DNA of 64,000 bases from a virus. Positions 17,016 through 47,161 of the stretch are shown here, piece after piece. The position numbers were made by a program, and so were the translations under genes. The stretch is from IMG/VR virus record IMGVR_UViG_3300028393_000039, positions 1 to 64,000 of that record, one strand, 5' to 3'. Positions within the stretch are counted from its first letter, which is position 1. Each line of letters opens with the position of its first letter. Below the pieces are notes generated by a model, which was given only the letters and a program-made list of their open reading frames with translations, was not told the origin of the DNA and did not search any database.

Positions 17016-18824
17016 TTATCTCAATTCTTTCAAATCAAATGTTCTAACACCATCTACAGTAATTCTTCCGTAAAACCTGTTATTTACCATTTTTTTCGCG
17101 TATCTCGTCATAATACCCTTAATTGGAGTAAAATTGAACGGATTGTACATAGTTGGAGTTAATTGTAGAGGTACGTACGGTGCGTAGATGTAACCTGTAT
17201 CTAACAATGACGTTCCTTTGTGTCCCATCAACACTTGGTTAGCTGGGAAGTAAGGGTCACGATAAACTTGGTAACGACCAGCCAAAGTACCTACTCTTTC
17301 AATACCCATGTTGTATTGGTCTTGCTCAGGAGCTGCGTTTGATACGTGGAAATATTCCAAATCATCAAAAATTGCACTGATTTCAGAAGAAACAACAATC
17401 CAGTTAGCACCACCTCTTAAGGTAGACTTATGAATTTGTGCAGAAATTTGGTTGATTGCGGTAATCAAAGTTTGGTTCCAATCTTTTTGAGTGTATGGAA
17501 CTGCTTGACTTCCTAATCTCTTCCAACCGTTGTAATCCCAACGTAAGTTCCAAGCTGCACCTTTACGTAAATCACGAAGGATTTCACGGTCGATTTCAGC
17601 CGCAACTTGTTCAGACAATAAAGCCGTTAATTCAGCTTCAGCGTCAATGTTGTGGAATGCTGCAACGTCTTGAGCCATTTCAGGTGACCATTGAGCTCTT
17701 AATTTTCTTTCAGTAACAGAAACTGTAACAGATTGAAGGTCAAAAGAAACTTCACCAATTTTATCTTCAAACTCCATTGTTTTGTAAACTCTGTAAGTTG
17801 CACTAAATTGACTGTTTACTGCTGCAGTACCATCAACTGTAATGGTTCTACCAGAATATCCATCAAGTGAATTTGAATTTACAGTACAAGGTGTTTGTAA
17901 ATCAACTTCAATATAGATTTTACCATCAGCATCACAAAGGTTATCGTATGTACCACCATTACCTGTTGAAGGGAATGAAGTAGTCGCATTAATATTACCA
18001 TATTGAACAATACCTCTACCGTATTTCTGAGTTACTAATCTGAATAATAAATTACCCGTACCTGTTCCTGAGAAAGCACCTGTACTAACAGATTTAACTG
18101 TCAAATCAGACAAGAAAGCTTCATTATCCATTACTTGACCATCAGGACCAATTAATTTACCCGCTCCGTTATTTGTGAAACCTGATAAAACAACAATTGC
18201 TTTTCTATAACCTTCAGCAGGTTGTGCTGCGATTGTATATGCACCTGGTAACATTTGTCCATTTGTCCATAAAACAGTAGTCGCACTAGCACTAACGGCA
18301 GAAAATTGTCCTTTTGAGTAATCAAATAAACCTGGAGGGTCTAATGCTGGTTCATTACCTTCATAGAATCTGTCATACAAACTCTTGTCAGTGTTAAAAT
18401 CAAAACCTGCATTTACACCTTGAGTTGCGCCTGGTGCTCCATAAGGTGAATAATGTGTACCACCTACAATACCGTCTCCACTTTCGTAAGACTGAATGTT
18501 AGGTACAAAGTAGAACAATTTACCAATTGGTAAGTTCATAGCTTGTACAGAAACGATATCATTCGCCAACAACTTAGAGAATACTCTACGTACGATTGGG
18601 AAAACAACTGTTTCAAATGCACCTGTATCAGATGTTGATGATGCTTCGTTTATCAAGAATGATGCTTGGTTTTCATATAACTGTGCAACATTTTCTTTTA
18701 GGTGGCCTTTAAGACCTTCAAGGAACCCTAATTTGTCCCATTTGCTAATAGTATCTTCTTTGATAACTTTAAGGTGCTTAAGACCGATGTTACCAACGAG
18801 ACCTGATTCTAATAATGCTCCCAT
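17016..18824 (-). CDS. gp23: Major capsid protein precursor (T4 gp23-like)
   Basis: This 602-residue protein matches the T4 gp23 type. A propeptide of about 60 residues ends SFLINE before ASSTSDTGAFE, an (I/L)xE/A prohead-protease site. The conserved FPIVRRVFSKLLANDIVSVQ and MNLPIGKLFYFVPN follow. Later signatures include a TERKLRAQWSPEMAQDVAAF segment and the C-terminal VNNRFYGRITVDGV. It forms the icosahedral shell after gp21-like cleavage. It is transcribed with the scaffold gene, since no TATTTAT element lies in the 37-nt gap before it. A strong terminator follows. Confidence 0.93.
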   Translation of the reverse strand: MGALLESGLVGNIGLKHLKVIKEDTISKWDKLGFLEGLKGHLKENVAQLYENQASFLINEASSTSDTGAFETVVFPIVRRVFSKLLANDIVSVQAMNLPIGKLFYFVPNIQSYESGDGIVGGTHYSPYGAPGATQGVNAGFDFNTDKSLYDRFYEGNEPALDPPGLFDYSKGQFSAVSASATTVLWTNGQMLPGAYTIAAQPAEGYRKAIVVLSGFTNNGAGKLIGPDGQVMDNEAFLSDLTVKSVSTGAFSGTGTGNLLFRLVTQKYGRGIVQYGNINATTSFPSTGNGGTYDNLCDADGKIYIEVDLQTPCTVNSNSLDGYSGRTITVDGTAAVNSQFSATYRVYKTMEFEDKIGEVSFDLQSVTVSVTERKLRAQWSPEMAQDVAAFHNIDAEAELTALLSEQVAAEIDREILRDLRKGAAWNLRWDYNGWKRLGSQAVPYTQKDWNQTLITAINQISAQIHKSTLRGGANWIVVSSEISAIFDDLEYFHVSNAAPEQDQYNMGIERVGTLAGRYQVYRDPYFPANQVLMGHKGTSLLDTGYIYAPYVPLQLTPTMYNPFNFTPIKGIMTRYAKKMVNNRFYGRITVDGVRTFDLKELR

Positions 18825-20734: not shown

Positions 20735-21448
20735 TTATTTTCCTAAATAATCGGATAATTTTCTCATTAAATCAATAGAGTGGTCAACATCTCCGCCAGA
20801 TTTTAATTTTTTTTCTTCTTCCAAATTCTCCTCATACTTTTCTCTATCATTTTTATCAGAGAATAAATAAGCACCTGGTGTAGATGGAGATGAAACTAAA
20901 TCAAAACAAATCAATTCAAAATCATCTTGAACTTCATTTCTTTCACCAACTTTTTTAAGTGAACCAACACCCCTTGATGATATACCAAGAGTAACACCTT
21001 GTCTCATAAGATTGGCCGCAATATCTCCTTTAGTTGATACTATACCTCTTTCGTGAAATCCTGGTGATGTTAATAGTTTTAATTTACCCATTAAGATATT
21101 CTTATCCCACCAAATATCGGTAATCAAATGAGACACTCTATCCAAATCAATTAAAGACGATTCTGGATGATTTAATTCTGAAGTTGATAAACCTTTTTGA
21201 ATAGTTGTTTTATACTTATCTGCCTCTCTTTTTAAGATTGGTTCAGGATAAAATCTACCATTTCTATTTGGTGTGTTGTATTTTTGTAGAACGGCATAAA
21301 ATTCAAATGGATTTCTATAATCCATAAGTTTTTGTTCTTGTAAAAATTTTTCGTTAAAACTATCTCTTGGTGATATGTATCCCGCATCCATTTCAACAAG
21401 AATACCAAATCCTAACTCGTTTGCTTCTAAAAGTCTTAATTCTTTCAT
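20735..21448 (-). CDS. gp21: Prohead protease (T4 gp21-like)
   Basis: This 237-residue protein carries the T4 prohead protease signatures. N-terminal QKYNTPNRNGRFYPEPIL is followed by SELNHPESSL with the catalytic His near residue 94. GISSRGVGS gives the catalytic Ser near 157-158, and SPSTPGAYLF follows. The enzyme cleaves scaffold, capsid and internal proteins after (I/L)xE. Its own N-terminus has RLLE before A, a possible self-processing site. It sits in the canonical place between portal and scaffold. A TATTTAT element lies 14 nt upstream. Confidence 0.9.
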   Translation of the reverse strand: MKELRLLEANELGFGILVEMDAGYISPRDSFNEKFLQEQKLMDYRNPFEFYAVLQKYNTPNRNGRFYPEPILKREADKYKTTIQKGLSTSELNHPESSLIDLDRVSHLITDIWWDKNILMGKLKLLTSPGFHERGIVSTKGDIAANLMRQGVTLGISSRGVGSLKKVGERNEVQDDFELICFDLVSSPSTPGAYLFSDKNDREKYEENLEEEKKLKSGGDVDHSIDLMRKLSDYLGK

Positions 21449-21483: not shown

Positions 21484-21912
21484 TTATTTTTTTGTGAGGG
21501 TAAAATCAAAGTATTTGTTGGAGGTAATGTTATAATCTTGGATATTATTTACAATCTTTTTTATTGAATTTTTTAAATCGTTTGATTTAAAATCTAATTC
21601 TTTTTCTGTAAAAAGGTTAATTTCTAAATTTAAAAAAGATTTTTTTCCAAAGAAAATTCCACTTGTTCTTAAATCTAAATCAACGATTGATTTTGGTGTG
21701 AATAGTGATGAATCAATTGAATCAAATACCGTATGTTTAAGTTCTCTACTAAAATTACAAACTATTCTGTTCCAATTTTCTAATTCTTCTTTTGGGGATA
21801 CCCAAGATTGAATGTTTATATATACAGATTTTAGATTTTTAGAATCCACGGTTCCATAGACCGATTTAAATGAATTAGATAAATTCAATTTTACACTTTT
21901 CCCTTTTTTCAT
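21484..21912 (-). CDS. Unknown protein in head block
   Basis: This 142-residue protein has alternating strands and helices (SVYINIQSW, SFLNLEINLF) and a conserved-looking structured body. It lies between the bS21 gene (opposite strand) and the prohead protease. No named family recognised. An assembly role is inferred only from location. Confidence 0.6.
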   Translation of the reverse strand: MKKGKSVKLNLSNSFKSVYGTVDSKNLKSVYINIQSWVSPKEELENWNRIVCNFSRELKHTVFDSIDSSLFTPKSIVDLDLRTSGIFFGKKSFLNLEINLFTEKELDFKSNDLKNSIKKIVNNIQDYNITSNKYFDFTLTKK

Positions 21913-21998
21913 TAAGTTCCATAATTAATTTGTTTATTTTTTATAAAAATAGAAGTAATTATGTGTAATATCAAATTTTTTAATATATATTAGGTAAT

Positions 21999-22184
21999 AT
22001 GTTAATAGTACAACTAAAAAATGGAGAAAATATTGAGAAGGCGCTGAAAACCTTGAAATCTAAAGTGATTAAAACTAAACAAAATCAATCACTTACTAAA
22101 AGAAAGGAATATGTGAAAAAATCTGTGTCCCGAAGAGCCGAAATACTAAAGGCGAAATATAATGAACAAAGAAAAAAATCTTAA
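21999..22184 (+). CDS. rpsU: Ribosomal protein bS21 homologue
   Basis: This 61-residue protein matches bS21 along its length. It has an N-terminal strand and GENIEKALKTLKSK, where bacterial bS21 has xExxxxALrrfKr. The second half reads KRKEYVKKSVSRRAEILKAK, corresponding to the R-x-F/Y-x-K-P-S-x-R-R-x-x-x-K segment of Bacteroidota bS21. It would bind the 30S platform near the 3' end of 16S rRNA. It is the only plus-strand gene inside the minus-strand head block and converges with its neighbour by 4 nt. Phage bS21 genes are known from metagenomes. Confidence 0.8.
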   Translation: MLIVQLKNGENIEKALKTLKSKVIKTKQNQSLTKRKEYVKKSVSRRAEILKAKYNEQRKKS

Positions 22185-22873
22185 AGAGACTCCACCAATT
22201 TTTTAAGTTTAAAATAACTTAATTGGTCAAATTTTTCATTTTGTATTTTAAGTATTGTTTCTGAAATTTTTGACTTTGTTTCTTGGTCTGATTCTTTTTC
22301 AATTAATGAATTTAATTTAATTGCTGCGTCATCCTTTAATGAATTGAACTTAATCTTTAAAGATTTTGTATCTTCACTTATAATAGTTTCCAATTCTTTT
22401 TTAGATGTTTCGTCTAAAGTTTGAATAAAATTTTTAATAGTTTGATTTGCAATTTTAACCATCGAACTAATAGGAATATTTACAGATTCTTTAATTTTTG
22501 TTTTTTCCAGAGTTAAAACTTTAACTAATTCTTTTTTACTCTCTACTCTTTCTTTAATTGATGTTGAATTATATACTAAATTATCAATAACCTTGTAGTT
22601 ATTATCATTACCAAATTTTTCATTTGGCAAACTTATATTTTCAATTAATTTTTGAATTAAATTAATCCCTTCGTTTACAAATTCAACCGCATCACGTTCT
22701 GATAATCCTTGAGGTGTAGATAACTCCTCATACAGAGAATACAACTTTGCGATACTTTTATTTTCCAAAACATCTTCTTTAAATCCAAGTAAAGATTTTT
22801 TGAAACTTTTCTTATCTGAATAAGATTCAAGTAATTGATTATCTACGTATGTTTTAATTTGTCCAAAAGTCAT
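22181..22873 (-). CDS. Putative prohead core/assembly protein
   Basis: This 230-residue, largely helical and charged protein directly follows the portal gene. The N-terminus MTFGQIKTYVDNQLLESYSD is an amphipathic leader with LLE before S, similar to other candidate prohead-cleavage leaders here. Position equals that of the T4 core genes 67/68 between portal and protease, but no sequence similarity is claimed. Confidence 0.6.
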   Translation of the reverse strand: MTFGQIKTYVDNQLLESYSDKKSFKKSLLGFKEDVLENKSIAKLYSLYEELSTPQGLSERDAVEFVNEGINLIQKLIENISLPNEKFGNDNNYKVIDNLVYNSTSIKERVESKKELVKVLTLEKTKIKESVNIPISSMVKIANQTIKNFIQTLDETSKKELETIISEDTKSLKIKFNSLKDDAAIKLNSLIEKESDQETKSKISETILKIQNEKFDQLSYFKLKKLVESL

Positions 22874-22896: not shown

Positions 22897-24753
22897 TTAC
22901 GAATTTAATAACTTATCTAATTCTATATCCATTTCATTAAGTGAATCTATACCGGTTTCAACATCTAGTATTACCGAACCCTCTATAAACCTTTTTTCAA
23001 CTAAAATATTTAAGTTATTCTTTCTTGATTCAGGAGTTATTCCCCCTCCTTCAGGTGGTGCTTCTCCTCCTGGTGGAGGTGGTGGCGGTGCCCCTAAATC
23101 GCCTCCTTCAGGTGGTGGAGCTCCCCCTCCCCCTAAATCAGGTGGTGCTGAAGTTTCTTCACCCGCAGGTTCAGCACCTGCAGTAGATGTTCCACCACTT
23201 GCGTTGTTACCATAAAGCTTATCGATAGTATCAAATAAACCTGTTTTAGTAATAACTGTTGCTGTTGATTTAAGTTCTTCTCCCACTGCCTTCTCAAATC
23301 TTTGTTGTAATAAATCAACTCTAATTTCTTCATCTGAAAAACCAAAAATATGTTTTTTAGCCCAAGTGGAAGAAACTGCTTGAATACCATTTCCTGGGTC
23401 TGAAACCAAATCTTTATATAAAAGAATTTTTTCTTTATAAACATCAATTTTAAGCAAGTCCGCCTGAGTAGACGGGTTAGTTAAACCTAAAGTGAAATTT
23501 GATAATTCATCTTCAAATCCAAGTAAAAATAAATGCACAATTGCAACTTTATTTAACTCTTGAATCATACTTTTTTGAATTCTATTGATTGTTCTTGCAA
23601 AACGAATATCCTGTAATGATAAATTTTTACCGTCACCTACAACTTCCTCAAAACCCAAAAATGCTTTAGGAACACGAAGAGCCGTTAATAATTTCTTTTG
23701 GATATATTCGATATCCGCAATTTCTGATAGGTTTGTTGCTCCCGGTAATGTCTCAATTGGACTCGGTGAGGCTGGGTCACGAACAGGTACAAAATAATCT
23801 TGGTCAACCGCCATTTGATTAAATCTCATATCCACATTACCTGTATTTTTATCCACCACTTGTTGTCTTTTAAACTTATCGGCAACACGGTTTACGTAAG
23901 GTTCAACATCTTCATCATTCATATTACCAACAAACACTTTAAAAATTCTTCTTTCAGGTGCTCTTGAGGTACGATAAATTAACATCGCATCTTCAGATAA
24001 TAATAATTGTTTCCAAATTCTTCTAGCCTTTTCCAACATAGAAGTACCATAAGGAAGTTTTCTATCGTCACCTAATAATCTAAAGTGAGCAATTTCCCAA
24101 GATTGGAATGTAATTGCTTTTTGTTTCCAAGTAAAAGTTAACGCCTTTTTAGCTTCAGTCTTACCTAAATCTACAGGGTGTTTATCACCCATACCAACTT
24201 CGTGTCTTTCAATTTCAATATTAGGTAACTGTTGGCAACCAACAACACCCTTTTCAGGGTCTAATTTTAAGTAAACAAAATTATCACCAAATTTACAAGT
24301 ATTTCTTGTCCACATCGGTAAGTTTGTATTAATATCTAAAACATTATTAAACAAATCCGCCAATACAGACTTAATCCTTTTTGATTCGGAATAAATCTGT
24401 AACATAAATCCATCTTCATTAACTGTTGTAGATTCTTCTGCATATATGTCTAACGCTGCGGAAATTTCGGGAGTGTACTCCATAGATTCATAATCATAAA
24501 CAGAAGATAATCTTGTTGGTTCGTAATAAATTGCTTGAGAGTATAAATTATTCTCTACTTTAGCCCACTGTTGTGCTAAATAAAATGTTTGTTGAGCCTG
24601 TAGTTTTTCTCTTTCGTATTCTCCCTTATCTTTAGTTCTTAATAATTCTGTTTTATCAAGTTTAAATTGGGGGTAGTCTTGTCCTAGCAAAGAATTGGGT
24701 CCGAATGTCTTACCGAGCCTCTGCCATACCGTTAAATTGTTATTTTCAGCCAT
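22897..24753 (-). CDS. gp20: Portal vertex protein (T4 gp20-like)
   Basis: This 618-residue protein has the T4 portal type of sequence: YTPEISAALDIYAEESTTVN, FGDNFVYLKLDPEKGVVG, a RTSRAPERRIFKVFVGN segment, and LRVPKAFLGFEEVVGDGKN. It forms the dodecameric ring for DNA packaging. The C-terminal about 90 residues include a Pro/Gly-rich low-complexity tail (GGGGAPPPEGGDLG..., PPPPPP) that T4 gp20 lacks. Next upstream is the large terminase. Confidence 0.92.
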   Translation of the reverse strand: MAENNNLTVWQRLGKTFGPNSLLGQDYPQFKLDKTELLRTKDKGEYEREKLQAQQTFYLAQQWAKVENNLYSQAIYYEPTRLSSVYDYESMEYTPEISAALDIYAEESTTVNEDGFMLQIYSESKRIKSVLADLFNNVLDINTNLPMWTRNTCKFGDNFVYLKLDPEKGVVGCQQLPNIEIERHEVGMGDKHPVDLGKTEAKKALTFTWKQKAITFQSWEIAHFRLLGDDRKLPYGTSMLEKARRIWKQLLLSEDAMLIYRTSRAPERRIFKVFVGNMNDEDVEPYVNRVADKFKRQQVVDKNTGNVDMRFNQMAVDQDYFVPVRDPASPSPIETLPGATNLSEIADIEYIQKKLLTALRVPKAFLGFEEVVGDGKNLSLQDIRFARTINRIQKSMIQELNKVAIVHLFLLGFEDELSNFTLGLTNPSTQADLLKIDVYKEKILLYKDLVSDPGNGIQAVSSTWAKKHIFGFSDEEIRVDLLQQRFEKAVGEELKSTATVITKTGLFDTIDKLYGNNASGGTSTAGAEPAGEETSAPPDLGGGGAPPPEGGDLGAPPPPPPGGEAPPEGGGITPESRKNNLNILVEKRFIEGSVILDVETGIDSLNEMDIELDKLLNS

Positions 24754-24791: not shown

Positions 24792-26555
24792 TTATCTACC
24801 ACCAAATAACCAACCATATTTTTTATAGTCTTCCATACCAGGTCCTTGACTTGGGAAATGTCCCATTTTTGGTGCTGCTTGAGGTACTAAAGGGTTAAAG
24901 AAGTTTGAAGAGTTTCTATCTTCATTAACTGATGTTGCCCACGAATTAATCATAGCCTTTGTTTGGTTAACATTTTTCTCTAATTGTTGAAATGATTTTT
25001 CGCCAACATAGATTGCCATAGAAATAGACATAATACAATCATCGTGTCCGTTTTTTTGGTGGTCAGGTCTTCCATTAATATAAACAAACCCATTCATTTC
25101 ATTATGGAGTCGGTTTGAACGAACCGCAAAATTATGTCTAATTGCTTCTTCAAAAGAGGCAATAATTTGAACTCTTTTGGAGTTAAAATTAATTCCTGGT
25201 ATTTTTTCAGCCATTTTTGGGTCCCATTTCCATTTATTTTGAGTATCCACGTTATCTACGTACATACCACCCTTATAATTCATCTCCTGTAACTTCCTTG
25301 CAGTTGCAACACCCATTCCTCCTGTTAAATCCGTAACACAGTAAGCATTATACATCGTACCCCATTTATAGGCTATTTCTGCAACAATATCGGGTGGTAC
25401 TTTTCCAACATATTCTAATACCTGTTTTCTTTCATCAAAATCAATTATTTGAATACAAGAGAAATCTTCAGAATCTCCCCTTGAAACGTCAATACCCATA
25501 ACATATTTATGTCCCGCTTCAGGTTCATCAAAAATCCATAAAGCATTACCCATAAGTTTTGCCTTAGGCTCCTGTATTGTATTATTTTTAATTCTTTGTA
25601 ATGTTTCGGAGTCAAACACGTTATCACCCGAACTTAAAAAGTTACATTCCAACTCCTGAGCCACTTTTCTCCTATCAAATTTAAGTTTTTTAACCATTTT
25701 CTCAAACCAATCAGAACAAGGTTTATATCCCTGTTCAATATAATCTTTTGTAATTTCGTGGTCTCTTTCATATGGATTATCAACACTTAAATCAACAATT
25801 GCATCTTTTGGATATTCTTCTATATTAAGTAAGAAATGAACCAAATCGGTTGTTTTAACCATATACAAATCTTTTGTATATCTCGGGTCTTTATACCAAA
25901 ACATTTCAGAAATCTTGAAGTCATTCATACTTCTTAATGCTTGGTCGTAAATCTCGTAATAAATCGGGTCCTGTCCGTTTGGTGTTGATACTACAATAAC
26001 CTTACCACCCGTAGATAGTGATGCCATACAAGCCGCCCAAAAGTCTGAATCCGCATCAATAAACGCCGCTTCATCAAAAATAAGGATAGTAGGTGTATAA
26101 CCACGAAGAGCATCTTTTGATGTTGCAACCGCCTTTACCTCACAATCATTATTTAACTTAAAATGTCTTGCGGCGTTCTTTTCGGCCGAAAATCCAATAC
26201 CAACCCAAGACGGCCATTGTTCTGTAAAGGCTCTTATTTTATTTGCCATCTCAACTGACGTATCAAGTTTGTTTGCAATAATCAAAACTTTTTCAGGTTT
26301 GCTTTTTTTAGCAAACGCAAGTTTTTTTGAGGCCCACGCCGCAGTTACCGTAGAAACACCCGCCTGCCTGTATTTTAGGGCGATATTCTCGTTGTATTTT
26401 TCGTAGTCCTCAATAAGACTAATTTGGTCTGGAAATAGGTCTAATGGTACATACTTTGATTTTGTATTATCAAAAGTTTGTAAATACGTTCTTAACGCAT
26501 ATGGAGTATCTCTCATACACTTTGTAACTTCAATTATTAATTGTTCTTTCGTCAT
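24792..26555 (-). CDS. gp17: Large terminase subunit (T4 gp17-like)
   Basis: This 587-residue packaging motor has a Walker A-like KYRQAGVSTVTAA near residue 62 and Walker B TILIFDEAAFID. A coupling motif VVSTPNGQ follows, then an RNase H-type nuclease domain with MGIDVSRGDSEDFS, YCVTDLTGGMG and GHDDCIMSISMA carrying the acidic metal ligands. It cuts and translocates DNA into proheads at the portal. Length is close to T4 gp17 (610). A TATTTAT element lies 6 nt before the start. Confidence 0.93.
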   Translation of the reverse strand: MTKEQLIIEVTKCMRDTPYALRTYLQTFDNTKSKYVPLDLFPDQISLIEDYEKYNENIALKYRQAGVSTVTAAWASKKLAFAKKSKPEKVLIIANKLDTSVEMANKIRAFTEQWPSWVGIGFSAEKNAARHFKLNNDCEVKAVATSKDALRGYTPTILIFDEAAFIDADSDFWAACMASLSTGGKVIVVSTPNGQDPIYYEIYDQALRSMNDFKISEMFWYKDPRYTKDLYMVKTTDLVHFLLNIEEYPKDAIVDLSVDNPYERDHEITKDYIEQGYKPCSDWFEKMVKKLKFDRRKVAQELECNFLSSGDNVFDSETLQRIKNNTIQEPKAKLMGNALWIFDEPEAGHKYVMGIDVSRGDSEDFSCIQIIDFDERKQVLEYVGKVPPDIVAEIAYKWGTMYNAYCVTDLTGGMGVATARKLQEMNYKGGMYVDNVDTQNKWKWDPKMAEKIPGINFNSKRVQIIASFEEAIRHNFAVRSNRLHNEMNGFVYINGRPDHQKNGHDDCIMSISMAIYVGEKSFQQLEKNVNQTKAMINSWATSVNEDRNSSNFFNPLVPQAAPKMGHFPSQGPGMEDYKKYGWLFGGR

Positions 26556-26561
26556 ATTATT

Positions 26562-26568
26562 ATAAATA
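26562..26568 (-). promoter_or_regulatory. Late promoter-like TATTTAT (minus), 6 nt before start
   Basis: Element 6 nt upstream of the terminase start, directly after the terminator of the preceding operon. Confidence 0.5.
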
Positions 26569-30401: not shown

Positions 30402-31142
30402 TTATTCTATCGTTTTTCTTTCAATAGATAATTCTTTATCTTTAAGTTTTGTTTTAAGTTCAAATAACCTACCGATATACCCTGAACGTCTCAAATACTT
30501 AAAAACCAAATTTTCATAAGAAAGTTCCCCTTCTTTTTCTAAACCTGATTGTCTATATTCTTTAATCTTTTCTTTTAAGTCTTTTAATTTTTTCCCATCA
30601 TTTCCCTCTTTGGCTTCTTCAAGAGCCTTATCTATCTTTGATGTCCAAGTTTTAATTTTGGTTTTTAATAATTCCATATCAATATTCTTATGTTTTTTTG
30701 GCGGAACATTAACCCACTCATCATACATTACAGAATATATACCTTCACTAAATTTTTCATCTTTTGCATCTTGGGCGTAAACCTCAACATCAAAACCATA
30801 AATTTTTATATCATGTTTATCATTAAATGCATCTTTTTTCAAATCAAACATTTCTTTATAAAGCTCAGGATTATCTAAACCTTCAAAATCAACTAAAAGG
30901 TGTAAGTCAAAATCTGAATATTCCGACCAATTAAAATTGGCTAATGAACCCATTAAATGAATATCTACTATGAATACATCTTCACCCAATTCATCAGAAA
31001 ATTCATCAGCAATTTTTAATAATTTTGTTCTAATATTATTTTTAAGTTTTGCTTTTTTTGGTTCTGCGGAATTTTCCCAAACTTTGGGATTTAGAGTATC
31101 CCTAACTTCAAAACTATTCAATATTTTTTGAAAATCTTTCAT
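30402..31142 (-). CDS. Nucleotidyltransferase-fold protein
   Basis: This 246-residue protein has the polymerase-beta-type nucleotidyltransferase signature LMGSLANFNWSEYSDFDLHL (hGS...DhDh), and a third acidic residue in GFDVEVYAQD. These are the three metal-binding carboxylates. The C-terminal half is helical and basic. Such proteins transfer nucleotides to RNA, protein or small molecules; the target here is unknown. It sits among head genes and has a TATTTAT element 5 nt before its start, so it is expressed like a virion gene. Confidence 0.7.
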   Translation of the reverse strand: MKDFQKILNSFEVRDTLNPKVWENSAEPKKAKLKNNIRTKLLKIADEFSDELGEDVFIVDIHLMGSLANFNWSEYSDFDLHLLVDFEGLDNPELYKEMFDLKKDAFNDKHDIKIYGFDVEVYAQDAKDEKFSEGIYSVMYDEWVNVPPKKHKNIDMELLKTKIKTWTSKIDKALEEAKEGNDGKKLKDLKEKIKEYRQSGLEKEGELSYENLVFKYLRRSGYIGRLFELKTKLKDKELSIERKTIE

Positions 31143-32828: not shown

Positions 32829-34886
32829 ATGAATGAACTAATGGATGATGACGAAAAAATGATGAGTAAGAAAAAAACCTCATCAGAAAGTGATACACCT
32901 GTGTTAGATAATTTCAGTAGAGATTTAATTAAACTTGCCGAACAAGGTAAATTAGACCCTGTTATTGGTAGAGAAAAAGAAATCCTACGTATCGCACAGA
33001 TTTTATCTCGCAGAAAGAAAAATAACCCGATTATTATTGGTGACCCAGGTTGTGGTAAGACTGCAATTGTTGAGGGATTGGCAATTAAAATCTATAATGG
33101 TGATTGCCCGAGAAATTTGGTTGATAAAAGAATTGTTGAACTTGATTTGACTTCCGTTGTTGCTGGTACAAAATACAGAGGACAATTTGAGGAAAGATTG
33201 AAAGTTATTATGGAAGAACTCCACAACAATCCAAACATTATTGTCTTTATTGACGAGATTCATACTTTGGTTGGTTCTGGAAACTCTTCAGGTTCTATGG
33301 ACGGCTCCAACATCTTTAAACCTGCTCTTGCTCGTGGTGAGCTCCAATGCATCGGTGCAACCACATTAAATGAGTTCAGAAAGAATATTGAAAAAGATGG
33401 TGCATTAGAGCGCAGATTCCAAAAAATAATTGTTGAACCTTCATCAGTTAAGGAAACAATTGAGATTCTCAAAAACATAAGAGAAAAATATGAAACCTAT
33501 CACAAGGTGAATTATAGTGATGAAGTAATTGAAGCTTGTGTTAAACTTGCCGATAGATATATCACGGATAGAGGTTTTCCTGATAAAGCATTTGATATTT
33601 TGGATGAAGTTGGGGCGAGAATGCAAACCGAACTAAAAGTTCCTGAAGAAATTGAGGTATTGAAAAAACAAGCTGCGGAATTGAAACAATTAAAAGTTGA
33701 CGTTGTTAAAAGACAACAATACGAGAAAGCTGCAGAGTTAAGAGACAAAGAGAAAAAACTTATAACCAAGTTAGACGCCGAAAAAAAGAAGTTTGAAGAA
33801 CAAATGCAAAAAGATAAACAAAAAATATCTGTTGAAGATGTCTATTCTGTTGTATCGACTATGACTAATATTCCTGTGAGTAAAATGAATGTTGACGATA
33901 ACAAGGCACTTATAAATCTTGATAAATCCTTAATTGATAAGGTTATTGGACAGAATAATGCGGTTATTAAGATTGCGAAATCTATCAAAAGAAACAGATT
34001 AGGTATCAAAGACCCAAATCGTCCAATTGGTTCATTTGTATTTCTTGGTTCAACAGGTGTTGGTAAGACCTATCTGGCAAAGCAACTGGCAAAAGAGATT
34101 TTTGGTAGTGAGGATTCACTTATCAGAGTTGATATGTCTGAATACCAAGAGAAACATACTGTATCTAAATTAGTAGGAGCACCTCCGGGTTATGTTGGAT
34201 ATGAAGAAGGTGGACTTTTAACCGAAAAAGTTAAAAATAAACCATATTCGGTAATCTTGTTTGATGAAGTTGAGAAAGCTCATAAGGACGTGTTTACGGT
34301 TCTACTTCAAATACTTGATGATGGACACGTAACAGATAGTTTGGGTAGAAAAATCAACTTCAAAAACACCTTGATTATCCTTACATCAAACCTTGGGGTT
34401 AAAAAACTTCAGGACTTCGGAACAGGTATTGGTTTTAGTTCAAATGCTTATAGCAACGAAGAAGCCAAAAAACAAATGTTGATGAAAGAAATGAAAGCGT
34501 TTTTCGCACCTGAATTTATCAACAGGATTGATGACACGATTGTCTTCAACACGTTGTCTCCTGACGACATTAAGAAAATCACCCGAATTGAGTTGGATAA
34601 ACTGATGACTCGTTTGTTGGATATGAAATATGTTATCAAATATGACGATACGCTTGTTGATTATCTCACCAAGGTTGGTTATGATGAGGCATTTGGTGCA
34701 AGACCACTCAAAAGAGCAATCCAAGACAAAGTTGAGGATTTCTTATCAGAGGAGGTGTTACTTGGTAAAGTATTTGAGGACAAAACTTATATGTTGAGTG
34801 TTTCAGAAGAACAAGTCAATATAAATGAAGAGTTGGTTGTTGAGGAAAAACCAAAAAGAGTTAGTAGAAAAAAGAAAGTAGATTAA
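32829..34886 (+). CDS. ClpC-like AAA+ unfoldase with two ATPase domains
   Basis: This 685-residue protein has a first ATPase domain with Walker A GDPGCGKT (71-78) and Walker [12 protein letters not shown] short middle domain carries a UVR-type motif ([16 protein letters not shown], near 297-312) as in ClpC. The second ATPase domain has GSTGVGKT (407-414) and [15 protein letters not shown] at 533-536 corresponds to the ClpP-docking [LIV]GF loop that ClpB lacks. The usual N-terminal Clp_N repeat domain is missing, so substrate or adaptor choice must differ. A phage ClpP lies 11.6 kb downstream. It is followed by a strong terminator. Confidence 0.9.
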
Positions 34887-34933: not shown

Positions 34934-34940
34934 TATTTAT
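34934..34940 (+). promoter_or_regulatory. Late promoter-like TATTTAT, 4 nt before start
   Basis: Element 4 nt upstream of the HNH start at 34945. Confidence 0.45.
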
Positions 34941-34944
34941 AAAT

Positions 34945-42301: not shown

Positions 42302-42309
42302 AAAAATTG

Positions 42310-42381
42310 TACCCCGGACGGGAATTGAACCCGTGACTCTTCCGTGAAAGGGAAGCGTCTTAACCCCTTGACCACCGCGGC
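42310..42381 (-). tRNA. tRNA-Glu (TTC)
   Basis: This 72-nt cloverleaf has anticodon arm CTTCC-CTTTCAC-GGAAG with anticodon TTC, and T arm CGGG-TTCAATT-CCCG. The acceptor GCCGCGG/CCGGGGT has one mismatch. CCA is not encoded. Confidence 0.85.
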
Positions 42382-42387
42382 ATTCTG

Positions 42388-42460
42388 CACGCACGTGAGG
42401 ACTCGAACCTACCATCTTCGGTTTTGGAGACCGATGTTCTACCAATTGAACTACGCACGC
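42388..42460 (-). tRNA. tRNA-Trp (CCA)
   Basis: This 73-nt cloverleaf has anticodon arm TCGGT-CTCCAAA-ACCGA with anticodon CCA and T loop TTCGAGT. The acceptor helix GCGTGCG/CGTGCGT has three G-U pairs, and the T stem has two mismatches, so it is a little degenerate. The discriminator is G, as in bacterial tRNA-Trp. CCA is not encoded. Confidence 0.8.
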
Positions 42461-45053: not shown

Positions 45054-45058
45054 AAACT

Positions 45059-45065
45059 ATAAATA
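45059..45065 (-). promoter_or_regulatory. Late promoter-like TATTTAT (minus), 5 nt before start
   Basis: Element 5 nt upstream of the start at 45053. Confidence 0.5.
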
Positions 45066-46486: not shown

Positions 46487-47161
46487 ATGAATATCGGACA
46501 AGAATTTACAAGTTATTACACCAAACATTTGGGTAAAGGTTCATTAGATTTACACAACTATGGTAATCAAATTGAATCATCTATGACTCCTTATATCCTT
46601 GAAGAACGGGAAATGAGGGCAACACAAATTGATATTTTTTCGAGGCTTATGCGCGATAGGATACTATGGGTTGCCGGTCCTGTTGATGATAGAATGTCTA
46701 CTATTGTTCAGGCACAACTTATGTTCTTGGATAATACGGATAAAACTGATATTACTATGCATATTGACTCCGGTGGAGGCTCGGTTAAATCAGGTCTTTC
46801 TATGGTTGATGTGATGAATTACATCGGATGCGATATCAGGACAGTAAACACAGGAATGGCGGCTTCTATGGGTTCAGTATTGCTAGGTGCGGGTACAAAA
46901 GGTAAGAGAAGTTCTTTAAGATTTTCAAGAACGATGCTTCACCAATCATCAGGTGGTTTCCACGGAAATATTCAGGATGCCGAGATTGATATGAAGGAGT
47001 GGTACAAAATTAACAATACTCTTTTTGAACTTCTTGGTGAATATTGTGGTAAACCCGCAAAACAAGTTATGAAAGATGCCTCAAGGGATTTATGGTTAGA
47101 TAGTCAGGAATCTTTAGATTATGGTATTATTGATGAAATTGTTAAAACCAAAAAGAAGTAA
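46487..47161 (+). CDS. clpP: ClpP-family serine protease
   Basis: This 224-residue protein has the ClpP active site: Ser in NTGMAASMGSVLL (residue 127), His in RTMLHQSSGG (152) and Asp in SRDLWLDSQ (201). HIDSGGGSVKSGLSMVDVM, the substrate-binding segment, and a DYGIIDEIV end are also present. The N-terminus is about 35 residues longer than typical mature ClpP. It would form a barrel that degrades proteins fed by an AAA+ unfoldase such as the phage ClpC-like protein. A host-type promoter precedes the operon and a terminator follows. Confidence 0.9.
   Translation: MNIGQEFTSYYTKHLGKGSLDLHNYGNQIESSMTPYILEEREMRATQIDIFSRLMRDRILWVAGPVDDRMSTIVQAQLMFLDNTDKTDITMHIDSGGGSVKSGLSMVDVMNYIGCDIRTVNTGMAASMGSVLLGAGTKGKRSSLRFSRTMLHQSSGGFHGNIQDAEIDMKEWYKINNTLFELLGEYCGKPAKQVMKDASRDLWLDSQESLDYGIIDEIVKTKKK

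Follow-up and report, generated by a model that had tools for sequence, protein, structure and literature searches.

Of all ribosomal proteins, bS21 is the one most often found in phages, by a wide margin, and many aquatic phages carry a gene for it. What such a gene might do for a phage, and why it should sit among the head genes on the opposite strand, are the questions raised by a 61-residue reading frame in the window, the whole 64-kb stretch of DNA analysed here, which is part of an 87.9-kb linear virus fragment. The bS21 phage of the window is well identified and belongs to a published group; the new element is a regulatory contrast between phage bS21 genes and the rpsU genes of Bacteroidota.

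A bS21 gene inside the head block

Between 16222 and 32658 every predicted gene lies on the minus strand with the sole exception of bS21, and this minus-strand block contains the genes for the large terminase (TerL), portal, head-maturation protease and major capsid protein. The features that matter for the argument are the following, with the position of the word TATTTAT given where it applies:

17016-18824, minus strand: major capsid protein (phrog_138); A-rich long leader, no TATTTAT box within 80 nt
20735-21448, minus strand: head maturation protease (phrog_207); TATTTAT 21 nt before the ATG
21484-21912, minus strand: 142-aa neighbour, divergent to bS21; candidate for the bS21_CN of Chen et al.
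21946-21974, minus strand: candidate divergent promoter of the 142-aa gene, TTGATA-17-TATTTT
21975-21998, plus strand: bS21 start region; no usable Shine–Dalgarno (SD) sequence, with AGGT 3 nt before the ATG (−3.8 kcal/mol)
21999-22184, plus strand: phage bS21 gene, 61 aa, ATG to TAA
22181-22873, minus strand: 230-aa neighbour, convergent with bS21; TATTTAT 23 nt before the ATG
22897-24753, minus strand: portal protein (phrog_213); TATTTAT 37 nt before the ATG
24792-26555, minus strand: large terminase; TATTTAT 13 nt before the ATG

Judged by its sequence, the product of 21999-22184 is a genuine bS21. It matches both the Pfam Ribosomal_S21 model (PF01165; 41.8 bits against a cut-off of 27, E = 9.1e-11, residues 4–55) and the NCBIfam bS21 equivalog TIGR00030 (31 bits against a cut-off of 28.95), and the closest solved structure, to which it aligns over the full length, is Flavobacterium johnsoniae bS21 (7JIL chain z, E = 2e-9). 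The residue that blocks the anti-SD sequence, Tyr54, is present; the Y54A variant of F. johnsoniae bS21 loses anti-SD blocking (McNutt et al. 2023, PMC9976891). Position 54 is aromatic in all 66 distinct bS21 proteins of the clade (Y in 57, H in 8 and F in 1), and the window protein thus carries the aromatic residue that marks a Bacteroidota-type, anti-SD-occluding bS21. Residues 21–30 are different: the phage protein reads SKVIKTKQNQ where the host counterpart reads RKFDKTGTVR, and this block is nearly invariant and phage-specific, with S21, V23 and Q28 in place of host R, F and T. Two statements of the preliminary description are therefore borne out, namely that the 61-residue product keeps the bS21 pattern, as seen in both family models, the 7JIL alignment and Tyr54, and that its gene is the only plus-strand gene inside the minus-strand head block.

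A chance reading frame is excluded by the number of related loci, their constant layout and the selection acting on them. A search of IMG/VR gave close bS21 relatives at no fewer than 565 loci. Among the 80 loci retrieved, bS21 is opposite in strand to its flanking genes in every case, with homologues of 21484-21912 in 79 and of 22181-22873 in 78. Further, the median pairwise dN/dS in the clade bS21 family is 0.20, indicating purifying selection.

The two flanking proteins are less easily read. The structure model of the 142-aa neighbour is confident (pLDDT 88.9), and comparison of the predicted fold with the PDB gave no match at E 0.001 or better; its sole clear fold match is an uncharacterised myovirus protein (ctPuP5, TM 0.88). 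The model of the 230-aa protein is weak (pLDDT 64.5), too weak for a fold search. Neither neighbour matches the genes at the same place in Flavobacterium phage Immuto. The bS21 and 230-aa genes have in common the TTAA palindrome at 22181-22184, which supplies both TAA stops. On the other side, the candidate promoter at 21946-21974 scores no better than chance against the consensus, and its sole support is conservation, its −35-like part being the conserved GTCAAAAATTTT block upstream of bS21 in relatives.

Elsewhere, the window encodes a 246-aa protein (30402-31142, minus strand) with a weak, below-cut-off nucleotidyltransferase-like match and a strong match to a PHROG of unknown function, and it has adjoining tRNA genes for Glu(ttc) and Trp(cca) (42309-42460, minus strand). 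A Clp-type AAA+ unfoldase (32829-34886, plus strand) and a ClpP (46487-47161, plus strand) possibly make up a complete phage Clp protease. We considered this ClpP as a protease that removes bS21 and rejected it as not tied to bS21, since ClpP is also present in a relative without bS21 (G003).

Place within a published group of phages

The gene, its orientation, its neighbours, the probable Bacteroidota hosts and the idea of a bS21 swap are already published (PMC9723584). Chen et al. 2022 described bS21-encoding jumbo myophages of Bacteroidota, in clades a–e, in which two hypothetical genes flank bS21 and the TerL, portal, protease and capsid genes run on the other strand; in relatives of the window phage bS21 is expressed late, together with the head genes. 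Their proposal was that phage bS21 is substituted into Bacteroidota ribosomes and favours late phage transcripts. The genomes of that study are about 293–331 kb, and two relatives found here (G001 and G002) are 321 and 326 kb, the window record being a fragment. The setting of the window is Bacteroidota-like, because its bS21 is nearest to that of F. johnsoniae among solved structures and its terminase has its best match in that of Immuto. The carrier is probably a jumbo myophage of Bacteroidota with Flavobacteriales-like hosts.

Host and phage bS21 genes differ in their start regions

In F. johnsoniae, the host bS21 gene, rpsU, bears an extended SD, and ribosomes that lack bS21 translate it most efficiently, which makes an autoregulatory loop (PMC9976891). 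We counted an SD as extended when its pairing with the 16S tail fell below −13 kcal/mol. The scan of genome contigs gave two bacterial relatives only, and hosts were sampled across the Bacteroidota phylum by a separate genome search. Pairing was below −13 kcal/mol in 46 of the 70 sampled rpsU start regions (median −15.1), and in 9 of the 17 whose bS21 is aromatic at position 54; about a third of the sampled host rpsU genes have no strong SD. By contrast, none of the 35 distinct clade bS21 start regions reached this value (median −1.1, strongest −4.9), and the window gene is without the extended SD of autoregulated Bacteroidota rpsU. The same was true of all 35 distinct bS21 start regions from other phage lineages, 2 of which fell below −9 kcal/mol. 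Fisher tests of host against phage gave p below 1e-11, a figure that overstates the case because the sequences are related.

On these pairing energies, the phage bS21 genes are without the strong SD that most sampled Bacteroidota rpsU genes carry, and this is new here: we found no statement of the contrast in Chen et al., in McNutt et al. or in a literature search, which covered subscription journals and preprints thinly. The bS21 of the 735-kb phage LR756501 (8001-8201 of locus L164) has a strong SD, AAAGGAGG, at −12.1 kcal/mol, most of its neighbouring genes having none, and this phage may have kept host-type feedback.

Absence of SD sites is general in the window. SD words of at least 4 nt precede 6 of the 89 genes, close to the roughly 4 found in shuffled sequence, so the lack of SD sites noted from the first reading stands. 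Most Bacteroidota genes have no SD. Being normal for the phylum, the missing sites need no special bS21 to explain them.

A promoter-like motif close to some start codons

TATTTAT starts 11–13 nt before the ATG in 13 of the 89 window genes, TerL included, against 0.3 expected (dinucleotide shuffles; maximum 3 in 500), and a second class has it at 20–23 nt (8 genes, 0.4 expected). Dinucleotide shuffles served as the control; an antisense count of so short and AT-rich a word was dropped as uninformative. Examples of the upstream element are found at 34934-34944 (plus strand), 26556-26568 (minus strand) and 45054-45065 (minus strand). On the opposite strand, TATTTATA reads as TATAAATA, the T4 late promoter sequence.

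Each gene family keeps its own distance between motif and start codon, even in diverged relatives, and a promoter would be expected to behave in this way. It is 11–12 nt in 26 of 28 distinct upstreams of the orthologues of the gene at 30402, 16–22 nt for the protease (55 of 56) and 35–37 nt for the portal (41 of 45). For bS21 itself, a TATTT box lies 11–13 nt before the ATG in 50 of 62 distinct upstreams of the clade, whereas in the window the box is degenerate (TATATTA, 13 nt before the ATG). F. johnsoniae mRNAs are mostly leadered; the −7 element of their promoters has its first T at −12, and transcription begins 4–5 nt past the element (PMC6847099). Given this spacing, a motif at 11–13 nt would place the start at or near the ATG, and if the motif is treated as a promoter by analogy with F. 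johnsoniae, near-leaderless mRNAs are predicted for these genes. The leaderless-like late genes that the preliminary description had noticed are accordingly upheld for 13 of 89 genes, TerL among them, and not for the capsid gene and most head genes, which are leadered.

Close relatives without bS21

Four loci (L138, L139, L141 and L133) have a terminase 79% identical to that of the window, keep both neighbours and have no bS21. Its slot is occupied by 135–138 bp (15336-15470 in L138) that contain a terminator-like hairpin and, after it, a run of T; no match to bS21 turned up in the whole 309-kb L138 record. In the phages of Chen et al., bS21 was missing only where similarity fell under about 70%, and bS21_CN was missing from the bS21-free outgroups (PMC9723584), unlike the present group, which keeps both neighbours at 79% terminase identity. 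We rejected the two neighbours as partners of bS21, both being present in these bS21-free relatives. The group falls among bS21 carriers in a portal-protein tree (support 85/87, below threshold, with the root unsure), and bS21 was likely lost in it. As close relatives without it exist, bS21 is dispensable, and these relatives are natural bS21-minus controls.

A candidate escape from host feedback

An extended SD on the host gene, none on the phage gene and a conserved anti-SD contact together offer a simple hypothesis for why phages carry bS21. With the anti-SD contact kept and the self-limiting element of the mRNA absent, the simplest reading is unregulated synthesis of phage bS21 with host rpsU repressed. 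The phage protein would be made late, if the timing in relatives applies to the window phage, and would enter host 30S subunits. bS21 is a loosely held, last-assembling 30S protein (literature including PMC9976891), and the bS21 of phage HTVC008M enters E. coli ribosomes (PMC6375957). Once incorporated, the window protein would sequester the 16S rRNA tail through Tyr54, as the host protein does. Its own mRNA, with no SD and a predicted start at the ATG or a few bases away, would still be translated by bS21-replete ribosomes, without feedback. Rising phage bS21 would then close the anti-SD on all subunits and hold host rpsU down, and phage bS21 would gradually take over the ribosome pool.

We give slightly less than an even chance to the core of this scheme, in which an anti-SD-closing phage bS21, itself unrepressed by the host loop, would keep host rpsU repressed. 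Its full outcome, a feedback-blind takeover that would silence host bS21 via its own circuit and convert the ribosome pool without nuclease or protease, we consider unlikely. Lack of an SD is the default for the genes of these phages, so that its absence on bS21 may be passive. The dispensability of bS21 in close relatives and the degenerate box before the window gene also weigh against the scheme. If the true host belongs to the third whose rpsU has no strong SD, there would be no loop to escape, and as LR756501 keeps a strong SD, escape is not universal. The contrast also bears on the suggestion of McNutt et al. that host autoregulation is a possible counter-defence (PMC9976891).

Other explanations for a phage bS21

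The specialised ribosome of Chen et al. 2022, in which phage bS21 takes the place of the host protein and, through a changed N-terminal helix, biases the 30S towards late mRNAs of the phage, is supported by the phage-specific 21–30 block, kept nearly invariant alongside the C-terminal anti-SD contact, and by late co-expression in relatives (PMC9723584). However, no mRNA feature tracks bS21, the head-block leader classes being alike in bS21-plus and bS21-minus relatives, and E. coli ribosomes with pelagiphage bS21 are about 5% active (PMC6375957). We hold this explanation to be somewhat unlikely.

Alternatively, phage bS21 might simply top up a labile protein after host shut-off, with specificity unchanged and the missing SD allowing constitutive translation. 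Such a supply role is consistent with the easy exchange of bS21 and its last place in 30S assembly (literature including PMC9976891), with Tyr54 and the overall pattern being kept, and with purifying selection, but the near invariance of a phage-specific block at residues 21–30 suggests more than replacement, and we think it unlikely that supply is the whole account.

The preliminary description had proposed that the phage exchanges bS21 to alter initiation, arguing from the lack of SD sites and the leaderless-like late genes. The general idea of exchange is sound, and published; the reasoning from those two features is unsupported. A retuning of ribosomes for leaderless late mRNAs would fit the motif 11–13 nt before the ATG, conserved by gene family, set against the mostly leadered mRNAs of F. 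johnsoniae (PMC6847099). Yet in the bS21-free group the readable orthologues of the genes at 30402 and 31363 (minus strand) still have the motif at 11 nt. Because relatives without bS21 retain the near-leaderless signals, these are no evidence for bS21 exchange, and we discarded leaderless late genes as an explanation for the presence of bS21. Additionally, in 16-kb regions of four unrelated bS21 huge phages the motif at 11–14 nt was absent from three and occurred once in the fourth, and the capsid gene and most head genes of the window are leadered, all of which makes such retuning improbable.

Finally, a bS21-like basic protein outside the ribosome, for example one packaged in the virion, would suit a very basic 61-aa product encoded among head genes, but is highly improbable against two curated models above cut-off, a full-length alignment to ribosomal bS21 and a kept anti-SD contact.

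Comparison with known systems

The host protein of F. johnsoniae (7JIL, PMC9976891) resembles that of the window in sequence pattern and in the contact of Tyr54 with the 16S tail. It differs at residues 21–30, and its gene has the extended SD and SD-based feedback that the phage gene is without. LR756501 encodes a bS21 63% identical to that of the window, but with a strong SD on the gene, and its terminase is not among the matches to the window terminase. Pelagibacter phage HTVC008M (Mizuno et al. 2019, PMC6375957) likewise encodes a bS21, one that enters E. coli ribosomes, although its host is a proteobacterium (Pelagibacter) and not one of the Bacteroidota with anti-SD occlusion. Immuto (MW353175) shares a T4-like head block and the same TATTTAT promoter-like element; in contrast to the window, its record is without bS21 and its TATTTAT lies about 20 nt or more from the ATG.

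The phages of Chen et al. are the most direct parallel, with an antisense bS21 in a block of TerL, portal, protease and major capsid protein genes, an aromatic residue at position 54 and Bacteroidota-like hosts. To these, the present analysis adds 80 further loci, the absence of an SD on bS21 and the promoter footprint.
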